A stretch of DNA of 64,000 nucleotides from an uncultured Methanobrevibacter sp. (GTDB taxonomy: Archaea > Methanobacteriota > Methanobacteria > Methanobacteriales > Methanobacteriaceae), in contig ONSJ01000008.1 in NCBI GenBank assembly GCA_900320515.1, positions 1-64,000 of the forward strand. Direction: 5' to 3'. Below are positions 19,974 to 53,702 of the stretch, piece by piece. Position 1 is the stretch's first letter; every line of letters starts with the position of its first letter. The notes under the pieces are model-generated. The model worked only from the letters and a program-made list of their open reading frames with translations. It did no database searches and had not been told where the DNA came from. Both the position numbers and the translations under genes were made by a program.

Positions 19974-21164
19974 CTATTTCAAACCAGCTGACAATCCCGC
20001 CAGATACCCTGTCGAAAAGGCAATTTTCAAATTATACCCTCCGGTTGGACCATGCAAGTCCAAGACTTCACCTGCAAAATAAAGTCCAGGAATCAAGGTT
20101 GACTCCATCGTTTTAGGATTAATGTTTCCAAGATCAACACCACCAATGGTCACCTTGGCCAGGTCTCCATTAAAATCTGTTATTTCAAAAGTGAACCTTT
20201 TCAAATTTTCAATCAGTCGATTTTTGGATTTTTTATTTATTCTGGACAGTTGTACATTACCGTCAAGGCCACATCTATCCAAATAATACTCAATGAAACT
20301 GTTGGTTAAAAACTGCTTCAAATAATTCTTTATAAAGGTTTTACCCTTTGATTGAAAGTCATTTGTAAACCTGTTAAGCAATTCTTCACGCGAAAGGTTA
20401 GGACATAAGTCAATTGCAATTTCCAAGTCAACATCAGGTTTTCTAACTAATAAGTTATAACTTATACCTTCCGAGATTTCATTGCTCAAGTTGATTATGC
20501 CGGGACCTGTCAGGCCCACATGAGAAACCAAGACATTTCCGCGAACCTTGGATTTCTTATAACTTATAACAACATCATTTAGTGTCACACCGGCAATGCC
20601 GGATAAGTCTTCACGGGTAACCAAAGGGGACAGACCGTATTTGATGTCAGTTATCGGCTGTGAGGTTAAAGAATAGTTATCAGGACTGCATCCGGTCTGC
20701 GGATATGTCACACCTCCTGTGGCTATGATAATTCTTTCGGCCTTGATGCAGTCATTGATTACAAAGTCCTCTGAAATCGTTTTAACTTCAAAGTTATAAC
20801 TTATAACCACATCTTCCAACTTATCACTTAGACCTTTTAAGATATCACTCGCCCTTTCGGTTTCGGGAAACATCCTGTTGTCATCCTCCTCAATAAAACC
20901 AAAATCAAAAAGAGAAAACAGGTCATCATTGGTAAATGTGTAAAAAGAGTGCTTTAAAAAATTCTTGTTGTTAAAAAAAGTTAATAGCTGTTTTATTGGC
21001 TTGTCGTTGGTAATGTTGCATCTTCCGCCGCCGGTCATCAATAGCTTGCGACCTAAAGACGGGTTTTTCTCAAGCAAAATAACACGTGAAGTCCCGCTTG
21101 CGGCAATTGCTGCCATAATTCCTGCAGGACCTCCGCCAATAATAGCTATATCGTATTCTTTCAT
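19974..21164 (-). CDS. NAD(P)/FAD-dependent flavoprotein, HI0933 family
   Basis: A 396-residue flavoprotein. The N-terminal FAD motif is YDIAIIGGGPAGIMAAIAA, followed by LLEKNPSLGRKLLMTGGGRCN, the family hallmark (HI0933/YhiN). The C-terminal FAD loop is GLYFAGEVLDLHGPTGGYNL. ATG 21164 is chosen because it directly precedes the Rossmann strand; the longer open frame runs into aspS. It starts 2 bases after the aspS stop. The gene carries three copies of AAGTTATAACTTATA on its antisense strand, the motif of the array beside parA. Substrate unknown. Confidence 0.88.
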   Translation of the reverse strand: MKEYDIAIIGGGPAGIMAAIAASGTSRVILLEKNPSLGRKLLMTGGGRCNITNDKPIKQLLTFFNNKNFLKHSFYTFTNDDLFSLFDFGFIEEDDNRMFPETERASDILKGLSDKLEDVVISYNFEVKTISEDFVINDCIKAERIIIATGGVTYPQTGCSPDNYSLTSQPITDIKYGLSPLVTREDLSGIAGVTLNDVVISYKKSKVRGNVLVSHVGLTGPGIINLSNEISEGISYNLLVRKPDVDLEIAIDLCPNLSREELLNRFTNDFQSKGKTFIKNYLKQFLTNSFIEYYLDRCGLDGNVQLSRINKKSKNRLIENLKRFTFEITDFNGDLAKVTIGGVDLGNINPKTMESTLIPGLYFAGEVLDLHGPTGGYNLKIAFSTGYLAGLSAGLK

Positions 21165-21166
21165 AT

Positions 21167-22486
21167 TTAAGGAGTTAATCTGTGTCTGTCTCTTGGGAAA
21201 AGTACACATTCACGGATGTTTTCAGAACCGGTAAGCACCATGGTCAATCTGTCGGCACCTACACCCCATCCTGCATGTGGAGGCATACCGTATTCGAACG
21301 CTTTCAAGTAGCTTCCAAATCCTGCAGGGTTCAATCCTCTTTCCTCGATTTGTTTTACAAGCAAGTCATACTGGTGTACACGGGTAGCACCTGAAGATAA
21401 TTCCAGGTTGGCATACATTAAATCGAATGCGTGGGAGTATTGCTCTTCGCCTTCAACAGGCATTACATAGAACGGCTTGATTTCGGAAGGCCATCTGGTT
21501 AAGAAGTAGAATCCTCCCATGGTGTCTCCTAAAGCCTTTTCAGCTTCACGGGACAGGTCTTCTCCCCATTCCATTGCAACATCTTTTGAGTTTACGATGT
21601 CAACAGCCTCATCATATGTAACTACAGGGAAATCGCCTTTAGGAACTTCCAGTTCATGACCTAAGATTTCCAATTCGTCAGCACAGTTTTCGTTGACATC
21701 TTTTAAAACATTGATCAGCATGTCGTTCAGGATCTTCATTACGTCCTCATCATCTGCAAATGAAGCTTCAGCATCTATTGATACAGCTTCGTTCAGGTGT
21801 CTGAGTGTATCGTGCTCTTCTGCCCTGAAAATCTGACCGATTTCAAATACCTTATCCATTCCGGCAGCCATCATCATCTGCTTGTACAATTGTGGAGATT
21901 GGCCGAGGAATGCCTCTTTTTCAAAGTAGGTAATTGGGAATAATTCTGTTCCTCCTTCAGTAGCTGATGCCACCAGTTTAGGAGTGTTGATTTCATAAAA
22001 TCCATTATCATAGAAGTAATCTCTTATAGTATGGAACATTTGACCTTTAATTTTGAAAATTGCAGAAACATTTTCCTTTCTGATATCCAAGAATCTTGAA
22101 TCTAATCTTGTGTCAATTCCTGCTTTAACTTTTTCTGTCGGATCCATCGGTAAAGGCTGGTTAGCCAAGTTCAAGACTTTAACTTCTTTAGGAATGATTT
22201 CAACACCGTTTGGTGCTTTTCCAGCTTCTTGAACTAAACCTTTTATTGCTACAACGGATTCTTTTCTGAATTCTCTTAATTCTTCCATAATTTTTTCGTC
22301 TACTTTTTTACTTGGAGCGGTTACCTGAACTCTGCCGGTGACATCACGAATGATGACAAACATGATTCCACCGAAATCACGGATTTCGTGCACCCAACCC
22401 ATGATTGTGATGTCTTCTCCTGCAATTTCAGGAGTGCAGCCACTAGCATAGTTTGTTCTTCTCCAATCGTTTAATAAACCTTGCAA
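21167..22486 (-). CDS. aspS: Aspartyl-tRNA synthetase (archaeal type, possibly non-discriminating)
   Basis: A 439-residue class II synthetase. The N-terminal OB fold ([20 protein letters not shown]) binds the anticodon, and class II motif 2 ([15 protein letters not shown]) and motif 3 ([15 protein letters not shown]) follow. TTG 22486 is preferred over GTG 22495 because GAGGTGA, the ribosome binding site, overlaps the GTG and lies 5 bases before the TTG. Many archaeal AspRS also charge tRNA-Asn; a GatA homologue lies at 41.8 kb, consistent with that route. Charging specificity was not judged. Confidence 0.94.
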
Positions 22487-27802: not shown

Positions 27803-28007
27803 ATTTTATAAAGCATTAAATAATAATTGAATCAAATATCATCAAAAATAATATTCATGAAATTAACTAAAATAATAGAAAAAATTTATTATCGAATAGA
27901 TATTGTAAAATATAGCAAGTATCATTTCAAGTGAAAAATAGATTCTAGAGAACAATTTCAAGTGCAAAAAAATATATTAAAAAAAGTGGAGTATATTTGA
28001 TAATATA
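27803..28007. other. Convergent spacer with two ORB-like sites
   Basis: Between the convergent radical SAM and ParB-like genes are TTTCAAGTGAAAA (27925-27937) and TTTCAAGTGCAAAAA (27956-27970), 31 bases apart. They resemble the origin repeats at 53.3-53.7 kb. A 25-codon frame in the spacer is not considered a gene. Confidence 0.5.
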
Positions 28008-28577
28008 CTATTCATCATCAAACAATGCCCATATTTCAGGGTATTTTTTAGAAACGGCTTCATCAATCAAAATGGAAGCCTCTTTTGAAATACTGAATTC
28101 CGGTTCGGTTTTTCTTAAGTATCTCAATACTGCAGAAGATCTTGAAGACCACAAAGTAATCCTTGGATTCTTATCAACAATCTTTTTAACTTCATCTAGA
28201 TGTTCCTTTTGTACTTGGATTTCCGGTGATGCTTGTACACTTTCTTCGCTGCCGTTATCGTCAGGTAACTCTTCGGATGGGTCATCAGTTTCCTCATCTT
28301 CCGGGCTTCCTTCAGCATCTGCATCATCACTTTCAATTTCTTCTTCTGGAGCTAAATCTTCTTCAACGTTAGTTTCCTCTTCAGAATCATCTTCAACAAC
28401 TTCCTCAGTTGTAGATTCTTCTTCAGAAGCAATATCATCAACAACTTCCTCAACAGTAACTTCCTCATCATTTAACATATCCTCAAGGGACTGAGGTGAA
28501 TTACTATCAAAATCTTCATTATAAAAATCAGGGGGAATTAAAGAGTCCAATCCTTTTCCAAGACCTTTCCTAGGCAT
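28008..28577 (-). CDS. ParB-like partner protein of ParA, acidic linker
   Basis: A 189-residue protein. The N-terminus MPRKGLGKGLDSLIPPDF matches the short basic motif with which bacterial ParB proteins stimulate the ParA ATPase. Residues about 25-115 are a very acidic Ser/Glu/Asp linker of low complexity. The C-terminal 70 residues (ITLWSSRSSAVLRYLRKTEP, then helices EASILIDEAVSKKYPEIWAL) could be a ribbon-helix-helix or similar DNA-binding unit. There is no canonical ParB nuclease/HTH domain. It overlaps parA by 8 bases. Role in chromosome segregation is inferred from motif and partner. Confidence 0.7.
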   Translation of the reverse strand: MPRKGLGKGLDSLIPPDFYNEDFDSNSPQSLEDMLNDEEVTVEEVVDDIASEEESTTEEVVEDDSEEETNVEEDLAPEEEIESDDADAEGSPEDEETDDPSEELPDDNGSEESVQASPEIQVQKEHLDEVKKIVDKNPRITLWSSRSSAVLRYLRKTEPEFSISKEASILIDEAVSKKYPEIWALFDDE

Positions 28578-29430
28578 TAGTTACCCTCCCGGTCTTTTTA
28601 GAATCTCTATTTAATTCAGCTTTAGTTTTAATATTTGTCTTAGCATCTTTCAAATTAACATTTTCATCCCTTTGAATAATCTCTTTTGCCAATTTAAGGT
28701 AAGCCTTTGTTCCGGTACTGTCGGGATCATAAACGAGGCATGGTTTTCCAAAACTAGGGGCTTCAGCCAATCGGATGTTTCTTGGAATGACTGTTTTGAA
28801 CAATAAGTCGGTTTCGCCAAAGTAACTTTTAAGCTCTTTGTAAACGTCTTTGCTAAGTCTAGTTCTCTTATCATATAGAGTGAGGAGAATTCCTTTAATT
28901 GGAGTGGGACTTCTAAGCCTTTGTTCGACTAATTTAATGGTATTAATCAAATCGGCTACACCTTCTAGTGCATAATACTCAGCTTGGATAGGTATTAAAA
29001 CGCTATCGGAAGCTACTAATGCATTGACTGTTATGACACCTAATGAAGGAGGTAAATCAATGAAAATGTAATCAAATAATGGTACAACATCCTTAAGAGT
29101 TTCCTTCAAGATAATATGGTAATTTTCTCTTCTGGAAAGCTCCATACCAGCACCACTGAGGGATATATTACTTGGGATAATAAACAAATTTTTAATAAAC
29201 GTAGGAATTGTTGCTTTTTTTACATTTATATCCCCAATGATAGCATCGTATATTGTATTTTCTATCTTAGTTTTATCAATGCCAAAGCTTGTAGTAGCAT
29301 TGGCCTGAGGATCCATATCGACCACTAAAACAGATTTTCCCATTACCGCTAGAGATGTTGCAGTATTCACAACAGTTGTTGTTTTACCACAGCCTCCCTT
29401 TTGATTCATCACTGCAATTACTTCACTCAT
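28570..29430 (-). CDS. parA: ParA/Soj-type chromosome partitioning ATPase
   Basis: A 286-residue ParA ATPase. The deviant Walker A is NQKGGCGKTTTVVNTA (residues 9-24), Walker A' is VLVVDMDPQANATTSFG, and Walker B is DYIFIDLPPSLG. These ATPases pattern the nucleoid and move DNA bound by a ParB-like partner. The partner gene follows with an 8-base overlap. The 410 bases upstream are packed with AAGTTAT/ATAACTT copies, likely its centromere or operator. A basic tail (last 35 residues) may add non-specific DNA binding. Confidence 0.92.
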   Translation of the reverse strand: MSEVIAVMNQKGGCGKTTTVVNTATSLAVMGKSVLVVDMDPQANATTSFGIDKTKIENTIYDAIIGDINVKKATIPTFIKNLFIIPSNISLSGAGMELSRRENYHIILKETLKDVVPLFDYIFIDLPPSLGVITVNALVASDSVLIPIQAEYYALEGVADLINTIKLVEQRLRSPTPIKGILLTLYDKRTRLSKDVYKELKSYFGETDLLFKTVIPRNIRLAEAPSFGKPCLVYDPDSTGTKAYLKLAKEIIQRDENVNLKDAKTNIKTKAELNRDSKKTGRVTNA

Positions 29431-29439
29431 TAAAGAATT

Positions 29440-29820
29440 CTCCTATTTATGATAAGTTTTAAGTTACCAGTTATGAATTATAACTTAAAATTTCAAAGCT
29501 CTAAAGAATAACATTTAAGTTATCCAGTATAAGTTAAAAGGATTAAGTTATTTCTTCTAAATTAAAACTTAAAGGAAATAACTTATCAGTTCCAACTTCT
29601 AAGGGATAGGAAATAAGGTTTAAGTTAGAACTTCTAAATTATAAAAAATAAGTTTTAAGAAATAACTTATCATAACTAACTTTTAACAAATAAGTTATAT
29701 TTTATAACTTCTTCCTTATAAAGTATTTGTTTTCACAAATAAGTTATTAGTTATTTATTATCACTTATAACTTATAACTGATAAAAAAAATTATAAGTTA
29801 TAACTTATAACTAAAAAAAA
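29440..29820. repeat. Dense AAGTTAT/ATAACTT array upstream of parA (candidate centromere)
   Basis: The spacer between parA and trpB2 holds many copies of AAGTTAT and its complement ATAACTT, loosely spaced in the left part (for example 29538-29550, 29575-29590, 29640-29700) and merging on the right (29761-29811) into near-continuous TTATAAGTTATAACTTATAA. Adjacency to parA/parB-like genes suggests sites bound by the ParB-like partner, acting as centromere, as autoregulatory operator, or both. Low GC alone does not explain the repeated heptamer. The same motif recurs at 39673-39761 and three times inside 20451-20807. Confidence 0.65.
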
Positions 29821-29841
29821 TCAAAAAAAAATAAGAAAGGA

Positions 29842-38970: not shown

Positions 38971-39684
38971 ATGAAATTAGGTTTTACAACACTGGCTTTA
39001 TTCATGGAACCTAACAACGACATCATCGATTTAGCTAAAAAATATGGATTTGAAATAATAGAAATTCTTGCTGAAGGCCCCTTTTTTGAAAAGGACAATG
39101 GTGAATTCAAGGACTGTGGCCTGGACATGAGAATGCATGCGGCAACTGTAGACATCAACATCGCAAGCCTTAACAAAGGAATAAGAGCTGAAAGCGTTAA
39201 GCAAATGATTCATTGCGGGCAATATGCCGAAAGCATTAATGCAAATACGATTACAGTGCATCCTGGGATAATAGGCAGAAACGAACCGCATTTAAGAAAA
39301 TGGGCATTGGAAATAGCTATCGAAAGCATTGGAGAAATAATAGACAACACAAATGTTGAAATTTCAGTCGAAAACATGCCTGTCCGTGGCAAATTCTTAG
39401 GAAACACCGTTGAGGAAATAGAGATGATACAGGAGGCAACCGGATGCAGTCTGACAATCGACACCGGCCACGGAAATACCTGCGGAAACCTTGAGGAGAT
39501 GCTTAACCTAAAAAACATCAGCTACTGTCACTTGAATGATAATGATGGCATTAAAGACCAGCACATTGCATTGGGTGAAGGCACAATGGACCTGAATTTA
39601 TTGAAAAAGATTGATACCGCAATAATAGAGCTGAACAACTTCGATAACATCCTTAAAAGCAAAGAGGTCATTGATAACTTATAA
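38971..39684 (+). CDS. Sugar phosphate isomerase/epimerase (AP endonuclease 2 fold)
   Basis: A 237-residue TIM-barrel protein. It begins MKLGFTTLALFMEPNNDIID and shows the metal-site strands ITVHPGIIG, ISVENMPVRG, TIDTGHGNTCG and YCHLNDNDG, the pattern of the xylose-isomerase-like/AP endonuclease 2 superfamily. ATG 38971 is chosen over the upstream frame, which reads through the padR promoter. Function may be sugar isomerisation or DNA repair (endonuclease IV-like); the short length favours the former. Confidence 0.85.
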   Translation: MKLGFTTLALFMEPNNDIIDLAKKYGFEIIEILAEGPFFEKDNGEFKDCGLDMRMHAATVDINIASLNKGIRAESVKQMIHCGQYAESINANTITVHPGIIGRNEPHLRKWALEIAIESIGEIIDNTNVEISVENMPVRGKFLGNTVEEIEMIQEATGCSLTIDTGHGNTCGNLEEMLNLKNISYCHLNDNDGIKDQHIALGEGTMDLNLLKKIDTAIIELNNFDNILKSKEVIDNL

Positions 39685-39761
39685 CTTATTCATTATTTTT
39701 TTATAAGTTATTAGTTATAAGTTATAACTTATAAGTTATTAGTTATAAAAAAATAACTTAG
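39673..39761. repeat. Second AAGTTAT/ATAACTT cluster
   Basis: The convergent gap between the isomerase and HAD genes is nearly filled with TTATAACTTATT, TATAAGTTATTAGTTATAAG, TTATAACTTATAAGTTATT and AATAACTTA. The motif and the TTATTAGTTAT spacer pattern match the array beside parA (29700-29811). The cluster's left edge overlaps the last codons of the isomerase gene. It may be another ParB-like binding site 10 kb away, or a bidirectional terminator formed by the strong dyads. Confidence 0.55.
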
Positions 39762-43204: not shown

Positions 43205-43226
43205 TTTACACTTGAAATGCACCTCT
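43205..43226 (+). repeat. ORB-like site after gatA
   Basis: TTTACACTTGAAATGCACCTCT matches the core (TTTACACTTGAAA) and the extended right flank (TGCACCCCT) of the origin-edge site at 53676-53697. It lies 22 bases after the gatA stop, 10 kb from the origin. Confidence 0.6.
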
Positions 43227-50972: not shown

Positions 50973-51908
50973 GTGGTTAAAATTTTCAAACTGAAAAACA
51001 TTATTTCAATTAAAGACTTTGAAAGAGAAGACATAGAATATATTCTTGATGAAGCTTCCACATTAGAAGATATCGCTCAATCCAAAGCGATTTCAGATGA
51101 ATTAAAAGGAAAAGTATTAGGTTTGATGTTTTTTGAACCATCAACAAGAACAAGAATATCCTTTGAAACTGCGATGAAACGTTTCAATGGGCAATGCATT
51201 GGATTTGCAAGCAGCGACTCAAGTTCTGTTTCAAAAGGTGAAAGCATTGCAGATACCGCCAAAATGTTTGAAGCATACAGCGATGCGCTTGTAATCAGAC
51301 ACGAGCTTGAGGGAGTATCAAAATTCATATCAGACCTAGTAGATGTTCCTGTCATAAATGCCGGTGACGGTGCAGGACAGCATCCTACACAGACACTGCT
51401 CGACCTATACACCATAAGAGATGAAATCGGATCAATCGACAATTTAAATATCGCTTTGATTGGAGATTTGAAATTCGGCCGTACTGTGCATTCACTAGCC
51501 CAATCCTTAACCTTATTCAATAACATTAAAATTTATCTTGTATCTCCTCAGGAACTCAGAATGCCTCAGGAGATTCTGCATGACTTAAACAAAACCAATG
51601 TCGAGTATGTAGAGGTTGATAACATTGAGGATATTATCGATGACGTTGACGTGCTGTATGTAACCAGAATCCAAAAAGAGCGTTTTGTCGACATTGACGA
51701 TTATTTAAAAATAAAAGGCGCCTATATCATCAACAAAAAAATGTTGGAAGGCAAGGATTTGATTGTAATGCATCCACTGCCAAGAATTGATGAAATCGCC
51801 GGTGATGTTGACGATACCAAATATAATAAATATTTCAAACAAGCAGCAAATGCAGTACCGGTTAGGATGGCGATTTTAAAAACTTTAATTAAAAACAACC
51901 CTAAATAG
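50973..51908 (+). CDS. pyrB: Aspartate carbamoyltransferase catalytic subunit
   Basis: PyrB makes carbamoyl aspartate in pyrimidine synthesis. The 311-residue protein has [19 protein letters not shown] (carbamoyl phosphate loop), [17 protein letters not shown] and the C-terminal [11 protein letters not shown], which distinguishes it from ArgF. The start is uncertain: GTG 50973 falls within AAAGGTGG, which itself looks like the ribosome binding site, and no ATG follows before the conserved IISIKDF; a non-standard start a few codons on is possible. pyrI is not adjacent. It converges on cdc6 with an 8-base overlap. Confidence 0.94.
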
Positions 51909-53067
51909 AGTAAAGAGCTGTTTCAAGTAAAGTTTCATCACATTGAAGTTTAATTATGTTAGTTCTACCTTTTCCACGGCCACGTGAAACTGTGTTTGTA
52001 GAAATTATACCGAGCAATTCAAGCTCATTTATGAAATCAAATATCCTTCTGTAAGTCACAGCATCCTTTTTGGAAATCTCAGTGTATGACTCATAAAGTT
52101 TTCCGGATGTTATTTCCTCTTTTTGTTTTGTCAATGTTAATATGGCTAACAGAAGCCTTTGCTGCTGAAGCGGAAGGGTAGATAAGATTTCACTGACTTT
52201 ATTGTGTTCTATTCTTTCCTTAGCTCTTTTTACATGATCGCTTGTCACTTTTTCACTGGCTTCATCAAAAGCCAATTCACCAGCATTCTTTAAAAGGTCC
52301 AATGCATATCTTGCATCGCCTTCCTCTTTAGCGGCCATTGCAGAACATAGCGGAATGACATCGCCATTCAATACATCATCATTGAATGACAATCCAGCCC
52401 TTTCGGATAAAATGTCTGACAATTGATCCGCTCCATAAGGTGGAAATACGATTTCCTTGTCGTTTAGACTGCTTGTAACCCTTGATTTGATTAAATTTTT
52501 AAAGTCAAGATAGTTACTGATTGACAGGACTGCAACATTGTCTGTTCTGGTTAATGTGTATAATATCCCGTCACCATCCTTATCAAGCAATATATCGATT
52601 TCGTCCAAAATAACAATCAGCTGCAGCTTTTTGCCATAGGCATTTGTTCTGAATAAGCTTCTGAATGCATTGACAACTTCCGCCTTGGTCCATCCACGAT
52701 TTGGAACATCACGTCCGAGCCTGTTACATAACTCTGCAATAACCTGATATTCTGTGGTGAAGTCCGTGCATCTGATATATTCTATTTTTACGAAGATGTT
52801 TTCGTTGTCTGCAACTTCCATCAGCTGTTCACGTGCAAATTTAGATGCAGCTGTTTTTCCTGTTCCTGTCTTACCGTATAAAGTAACATTGGATGGAGTG
52901 ACATTATCCAAAACATCAACCCAGTTTCTAGCAATTTCCCTGATTTGCACATCCCTGTGCACTAACTTTTCAGGCAAAAATCTGTGATCCAACGGTTTCT
53001 TGTTTTTAAATATATGATTTTTCCTTCTGTTTGAAATAAGTTCTTCATCCTCAAAAATATTCGCCAT
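51901..53067 (-). CDS. cdc6: Orc1/Cdc6 replication initiator
   Basis: A 388-residue AAA+ initiator. Walker A is [15 protein letters not shown] (residues about 60-74), Walker [13 protein letters not shown], sensor 1 [11 protein letters not shown], and sensor 2 in the [12 protein letters not shown] stretch; the C-terminal 90 residues form a winged helix ([20 protein letters not shown]). ATG 53067 is preferred over GTG 53076 since GGTGG overlaps the GTG and lies 7 bases before the ATG. The initiator gene points away from the adjacent origin at 53.1-53.7 kb, as in other archaea. Confidence 0.95.
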
Positions 53068-53364
53068 CTTTACCACCTAAAAAAATAAGTAAATAACAAA
53101 AATGTCATGAGTATAATTTCCAGTGTTATTATTATTAAATAGCTAATAAATAAAGCTTTTTATTACAAGCTATGAAAATTGTATTAACAATTGAAAAATG
53201 TCATGAATTTAATTTGATTAAATTAAGTTAAATTAAATAAAAATAATTATTTATCGTTAAAATAAAAAATTAATGAATATTAAGTTTTATAATAAAAAAA
53301 TATTCGATTTTTGAAGTTTAATTTTTAAATGTGAAATAGTGTTATTTCAAATATAAGATAATGA

Positions 53365-53376
53365 TTTCAAGTGTAA
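53365..53376 (-). repeat. ORB copy 1
   Basis: TTTCAAGTGTAA (plus strand) in the origin. A weaker TTTCAAATATAA precedes it at 53345-53356, 20 bases upstream. Confidence 0.8.
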
Positions 53377-53474
53377 TTATTTCTAAAAAAAATGAATTCA
53401 CACCCGCCAAATCACTCAATGAACATCAACATCATAAAATTTATCATGATTCTTCACAAAGACAGAGAGGTCCG

Positions 53475-53486
53475 TTTCAAGTGTAA
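53475..53486 (-). repeat. ORB copy 2
   Basis: TTTCAAGTGTAA preceded by GAGAGGTCCG, which supplies a short G-run on the left similar to the extended sites. Confidence 0.8.
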
Positions 53487-53522
53487 CATATTTTGTCGAA
53501 AAGCCCAAAATGAAGACATATA

Positions 53523-53535
53523 TTTCAAGTGTAAA
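53523..53535 (-). repeat. ORB copy 3
   Basis: TTTCAAGTGTAAA, an exact complement of TTTACACTTGAAA. It lies 48 bases from copy 2. Confidence 0.8.
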
Positions 53536-53619
53536 AAATCAATTATTGCACTATTATTATGAAAAAAAGGAATATTAACATGTCAAATCAGCAAAACAAG
53601 TAAAAAAATAAAAGATAAA

Positions 53620-53640
53620 TTTCAAGTGTTACAGTTGAAA
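53620..53640. repeat. ORB inverted pair
   Basis: TTTCAAGTGTTA and TTACAGTTGAAA overlap head to head, making a 21-base palindrome-like site that could bind two Cdc6 molecules facing each other. Confidence 0.75.
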
Positions 53641-53675
53641 TAGACCCCTTCAGTCTTACAATATCAACGAAAACG

Positions 53676-53700
53676 TTTCACTTGAAATGCACCCCTCCCT
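53676..53700 (+). repeat. ORB extended copy at origin right edge
   Basis: TTTCACTTGAAA followed by TGCACCCCTCCCT. The same core and flank recur at 43205-43226 (TTTACACTTGAAATGCACCTCT) and, less exactly, at 63317-63339. The C-rich flank (G-string on the other strand) resembles the extension of full-length archaeal ORB elements. Confidence 0.75.
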
Positions 53701-53702
53701 CT

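Follow-up and report, generated by a model that had tools for sequence, protein, structure and literature searches.

In the SegAB system of Saccharolobus solfataricus and other Sulfolobales, overlapping segA and segB genes encode an ATPase and a DNA-binding partner with a ribbon-helix-helix (RHH) domain, and the SegB sites lie upstream of segA and in part inside genes. Chromatin immunoprecipitation gave TCTAGA-S-TCTAGA (S = G or C) as the Sulfolobus SegB motif (PMC12284271), and the Sulfolobus SegA ATPase is stimulated by the N-terminal domain of SegB (PMC11229316). The superhelical structure that SegB adopts on DNA has been likened in a review to that of omega (PMC9178275), the RHH partner of a small ParA in the delta/omega system of plasmid pSM19035. 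Omega acts on contiguous 7-bp repeats (PMC4498918) spread over the operon promoter region, with 7-10 copies of the heptad WATCACW on the plasmid; each dimer occupies one heptad, and ParA is activated only when four or more heptads are contiguous (PMC9499535). In bacterial chromosomal ParABS systems a Soj-type ParA works with a ParB that has CTPase and HTH domains and an N-terminal LGxG motif, and the sites are clustered near the origin. The N-terminal segment MAKNKVLGRG of Helicobacter pylori ParB contacts ParA, and its Leu7 and Arg9 are conserved in bacterial ParB (PMC11229316). The presence of segAB in Euryarchaea, including Methanothermobacter, was already recorded in a 2016 review, which listed the appearance of archaeal centromeres, their clustering and the reach of SegAB into Euryarchaea among the outstanding questions (PMC5120986).

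The window analyzed here, a stretch of 64,000 nucleotides from an uncultured Methanobrevibacter sp. (contig ONSJ01000008.1, assembly GCA_900320515.1), carries a gene pair of the same layout on its minus strand. The segA gene (28570..29430) encodes a ParA/Soj-type Walker ATPase of 286 amino acids with a KGGCGKTT P-loop (AAA_31, E=1.6e-62). It stands directly before segB (28008..28577), which encodes a putative centromere-binding partner of 189 amino acids, and the end of segA overlaps the start of segB by 8 bp. The nearest solved chains to SegA were the ParA family protein 8ray (E=3e-71) and Soj 6iub (E=4e-63), whereas the match to Sulfolobus SegA 7dut was far weaker (E=9e-17). By sequence, then, this SegA is closest to the bacterial Soj/ParA type and differs in this from its counterpart in Sulfolobales.

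The partner gave no family above cut-off in Pfam and NCBIfam, and neither collection placed a ParB/Srx CTPase or HTH domain in it, which ruled out an identity as an HTH/CTPase ParB. Its relationship was found through homologues. A compact homologue of 99 amino acids from a related genome matched Saccharolobus SegB (7duv, E=5.3e-8; 7dv2, E=6.7e-8), and a profile of 40 relatives matched 7duv with E=3.5e-13, the next unrelated chain standing at E=0.098. The AlphaFold model of full-length SegB (mean pLDDT 61.5) returned 31 Foldseek matches, none at E<=0.001, and the C-terminal domain was therefore modelled alone. The domain model (mean pLDDT 79) shows an extended segment followed by helices at 28-40 and 46-61. 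Foldseek ranked Sulfolobus SegB (7dv2/7duv) first, with probability 1.00 and E=0.02, and a second structural comparison superposed 49 residues at 1.8 A with a modest Z of 4.4. Homology, AlphaFold and Foldseek thus place an RHH domain at about residues 136-187 (28017..28172, minus strand); a histone-like fold, considered for the C-terminus, was dropped because SegB homology and the model point to RHH. Since the C-terminal domain of the partner is homologous to Sulfolobus SegB, the pair is a euryarchaeal SegAB, the chromosomal system of a Methanobrevibacter-like archaeon.

The other end of SegB resembles a bacterial protein. Residues 1-16, MPRKGLGKGLDSLIPP (28530..28577, minus strand), hold the motif LGxGLxxLI, which by inspection corresponds to the LGxG of H. 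pylori ParB. Positions L6, G7, G9, L10 and I14 are invariant across the 40 SegB sequences of alignment A3, the members of which were picked for having LGxGL. Methanobacteria have the motif at the SegB N-terminus, as do three Thermococcales/Thermococci loci and one Archaeoglobaceae locus, and it is absent from the one Sulfolobus-type SegB examined (L125). Among 79 distinct SegBs it is missing in seven: truly so in L125, with none in frame in L144, while L133, L142, L194, L201 and L203 appear cut short or contain unknown residues. A phmmer search with the 20-residue N-terminus gave no match. These observations suggest that SegB of Euryarchaea is a composite, with the DNA-binding domain of an archaeal protein and a ParA contact of bacterial type. 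The initial annotation, made from the letters of the window, had described an overlapping ParA gene and a partner with a ParB-like ParA-contact motif, no ParB nuclease/HTH domain, and an acidic linker before a small C-terminal domain; each of these points was upheld, the middle of the protein being acidic and the small C-terminal domain conserved. Structure prediction of that C-terminal domain, which it had proposed as a check, ranked Sulfolobus SegB first, and this result together with the homology (E=5e-8 and 3.5e-13) contradicts its further claim that the system is distinct from SegAB of Sulfolobus.

The pair is widespread. A Soj-like SegA (E<1e-80) is present in 35 of 41 genomes, the source genome included, and the SegB profile matches 135 of the 151 genomes of the phylum; of the 16 genomes without a SegB match, 14 have no SegA match at E<=1e-30 either. 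One apparent absence concerns a 99% complete genome (G006), in which a contig stops inside a heptad array of the kind described below (L221, G006:C4:62001-80555), and segAB may therefore be undercounted in draft genomes. A contig titled 'Bacilli bacterium' (L196) bears a segAB pair and array of the Methanobrevibacter type, and that bin is probably mislabelled or contaminated.

The region upstream of segA is occupied by a heptad array, (TTATAAS)n with S = G or C, held in a single register (29434..29830). It comprises about 45-50 heptads over roughly 380 bp, ends about 20 bp from segA and has its longest in-register runs within 29450-29817. Read in the direction of segA, the array has half of its G/C bases (38 of 76) in a single one of the seven phases. 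For period 7 this gives a chi-square of 83.1, where 1000 dinucleotide shuffles averaged 5.0 and never exceeded 23.0; per degree of freedom the value is 13.85, and it is at most 1.37 at periods from 3 to 20 that are not multiples of 7. In the array phase 40 of 53 heptads depart from TTATAAS at two positions or fewer; in each of the other phases 0-4 of 53-54 do so. Tandem Repeats Finder reported periods of 7, 14, 14, 28, 28 and 35, plus one of 33. A 210-bp sliding test over the 64-kb window yielded one peak above 22, at this array. The unit averaged over 33 arrays (1765 units, from those arrays only whose chi-square per degree of freedom was at least 8, L162 among them) reads T.76 T.75 A.74 T.63 A.69 A.67, then C.37/G.28. 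The 12-mer palindrome AAGTTATAACTT has four copies in the whole draft genome, all inside the window.

Palindromic sites of the form hexamer-S-hexamer, spaced at 7 bp, therefore stand before segA here as palindromic hexamers with an S do in Sulfolobales, and the letters differ, TTATAA-S-TTATAA here and TCTAGA-S-TCTAGA there. The Sulfolobus motif itself was ruled out as the site: allowing up to three mismatches it has 5 matches in the window against 10 expected, and none in the array. The arrangement also shares with pSM19035 its runs of at least four contiguous 7-bp repeats over the operon promoter region, an RHH partner and a small ParA, whereas the unit is TTATAAS and does not carry the WATCACW letters; no sequence homology between omega and this SegB came out of the SegB homology searches. 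Compared with bacterial ParABS, the locus has in common the Soj-type ParA, the LGxG motif of the partner and sites clustered near the origin, and differs in its RHH partner with heptad sites. The crowding of AAGTTAT/ATAACTT in the 380 bases upstream, on which the first proposal of a minimal archaeal segregation system and a dedicated site array was partly founded, is real (39 copies of AAGTTAT in the window against 15.75 expected, 11 of them within 29480-29806), although the true unit is TTATAAS; the segAB genes and the heptad array bear out that proposal.

A TATA-like element, TTTATAAG (29715..29722, minus strand), lies within the array about 290 bp upstream of segA and is a candidate segAB promoter; many relatives have related words at about -290. 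Should this element be the promoter, about 260 nt of the heptad array would be transcribed as a leader. An Rfam search of this leader gave no match, which ruled out a structured RNA leader of known family.

Period 7 recurs upstream of segA in other genomes. Chi-square per degree of freedom exceeded 3 at this period in 21 of 22 loci of the same genus and in 53 of 70 named loci; in 0 of the 70 was that value exceeded at any of ten other periods. The Methanobrevibacter loci are related, so that counts over them are not independent, and 10 of 80 named loci had been left out because the locus did not include a segA start preceded by 150 bp or more. The 17 named loci without strong period 7 mostly have short arrays, where tested, and 15 of 17 tested loci without a long array beat all 200 shuffles. 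So did four of four loci from other families of Methanobacteria. Outside that class, Thermococci locus L127 beat all 200 shuffles, and Thermococcales L126 and Archaeoglobaceae L180 did not; support in Thermococcales thus amounts to one of two independent loci. When the sliding test was run on 1.2 Mb from six relatives (60 stretches of 20 kb), peaks above 26 occurred only upstream of segA, in G010, G011 and G014.

Further heptad sites, absent from the initial annotation, lie 7-11 kb from the segA array; the window has runs of at least four in-register heptads at 20441-20848, 29450-29817 and 39701-39749 and nowhere else. On one side they fall inside a flavoprotein gene (19974-21209), as a site of four heptads (20441..20468), an exact copy of TTATAACTTATAA (20557..20569) and the runs 20780-20807 and 20814-20848 (together 20780..20848). 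On the other side a satellite array occupies a convergent intergenic gap (39672..39749), with seven in-register heptads at 39701-39749 and further sequence at 39672-39691. Palindromes 10-11 kb from segA, with an offset like that of this array, were found in G003, G016, G017 and G023. In a comparison of the flavoprotein gene with 15 relatives, the codon was kept at residues identical to those of the window in fractions of 0.80, 0.90 and 0.74 at the three sites; the figure for the whole gene is 0.506. Exchanges of Ser and Thr (AGT/ACT) within the sites preserve the S position of the heptad. The heptad sites in this gene are under synonymous constraint and conserved at the DNA level.

The replication initiator gene orc1/cdc6 (51901..53076, minus strand) and the segA array are about 23 kb apart. 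The AT-rich intergenic region upstream of orc1 (53077..53702) contains six TTACACTTGAAA-like elements with at most one mismatch, at 53365-53687, and on account of these repeats it was marked as the probable oriC. Two copies of an origin-type element, TTTCACTTGAAA / TTGCACTTGAAA, also lie directly after segB (27925-27967), 25 kb from the probable oriC, and further origin-type elements are at 43206, 55819, 61067 and 63318.

The placement of strict sites was compared across 26 relatives. The 17-mer TTATAAGTTATAASTTA gave 63 rows in 20 of the 26 genomes, against one match for the reversed 17-mer, and was absent from the other six. After merging of rows, 33 of 42 strict sites had segB or orc1 no more than 50 kb away, where 4.7 would be expected under a uniform distribution (some genome lengths being rounded). 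The remaining nine lay more than 50 kb away, notably in genus g18 (G124, G129), which has dispersed sites, and in G079. The clustering near segAB and orc1, like the arrays of up to about 50 units and the LGxGLxxLI of SegB, sets these loci apart from Sulfolobales SegAB. In 23 genomes of another archaeal phylum neither the strict 17-mer nor its reversed control was found. The 12-mer palindrome AAGTTATAACTT shows no numerical excess (73 sites in 41 genomes against 93 for the reversed control), and only its placement is unusual: 51 of the 73 sites are near segA or orc1, or 59 when the flavoprotein-gene sites are added. A second control palindrome, ATAGTATACTAT, had 13 sites in the 41 genomes, two of them near segA or orc1. 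In G026, where segAB is about 309 kb from orc1, the sites in the sampled stretches stay by segAB.

We consider it likely that SegB dimers coat the heptad arrays and so form an origin-proximal, parS-like centromere that is moved by SegA. SegB dimers would bind the TTATAAS units through the RHH domain, presumably one dimer per heptad as for omega, and side-by-side coating of as many as about 50 in-register units would give a helical SegB-DNA complex. The smaller arrays, about 9 kb away on one side (within the gene) and 10 kb on the other, would extend this centromere in the manner of bacterial parS clusters. The complex would display the unstructured LGxGLxxLI N-termini, and these may contact SegA-ATP dimers bound to the nucleoid and stimulate their ATPase; with hydrolysis triggered, the origin region would follow the SegA gradient. 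Since the candidate segAB promoter region is covered by the array, autorepression of the operon by SegB is probable as well.

That coverage, which takes in the whole upstream region with the TATA-like box inside it, would also suit an array serving only as an operator, through which SegB or another regulator controls segAB transcription with no centromere role, and the 2016 review left such a possibility open for the two upstream sites in Sulfolobus (PMC5120986). We regard this as unlikely: TTATAAS sites also lie in the flavoprotein gene and the convergent gap, away from the segAB promoter, those within the gene are conserved as DNA, 33 of 42 strict sites cluster with segB or orc1, and some 50 units go far beyond the needs of an operator. 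It is very improbable that the heptads are bound by some different protein, such as a nucleoid protein, and that segAB is adjacent by chance, since the position of the array tracks segA across genera, the hexamer-plus-S grammar is shared with the known SegB motif, and the 1.2 Mb of sampled stretches contained no locus other than those before segA with so long an array; the link from SegB to the letters TTATAAS is itself drawn by inference, and the lack of enrichment of the Sulfolobus motif here would fit another binder. Neutral tandem-repeat expansion in an AT-rich spacer, as the Tandem Repeats Finder detections might suggest, is scarcely credible given that diverse units hold phase over about 380 bp, that the phase is retained in diverged loci and the period in most close relatives (21/22; 53/70), and that the scattered sites show synonymous constraint.

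What is new is the long in-register TTATAAS array, the SegAB system itself being already known; judging by titles and the openings of abstracts, the literature searched on SegB or SegAB in Euryarchaeota, Methanobacteriales and Methanothermobacter describes no such arrays. By analogy with plasmid protein omega, the array points to a SegB that recognizes DNA at a 7-bp step. Extending the coated, SegA-moved centromere proposed above, we lean slightly towards a euryarchaeal regional centromere built of 7-bp SegB units near the origin, in which a promoter array of about 50 units would nucleate a continuous SegB helix, satellites would lie within tens of kb, and a Soj-type SegA would act through a ParB-type tail; the SegB code, in which a palindromic hexamer and an S recur at 7-bp intervals, may then be archaea-wide, with lineage-specific letters. 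For Thermococcus sibiricus, a 2025 ChIP-seq study could locate no sites around segAB with the Sulfolobus motif and anticipated that the sequences would be different in that species (PMC12284271). The TTATAAS heptad gives such a sequence for Methanobacteria, with coordinates, in a group that has cultured members.
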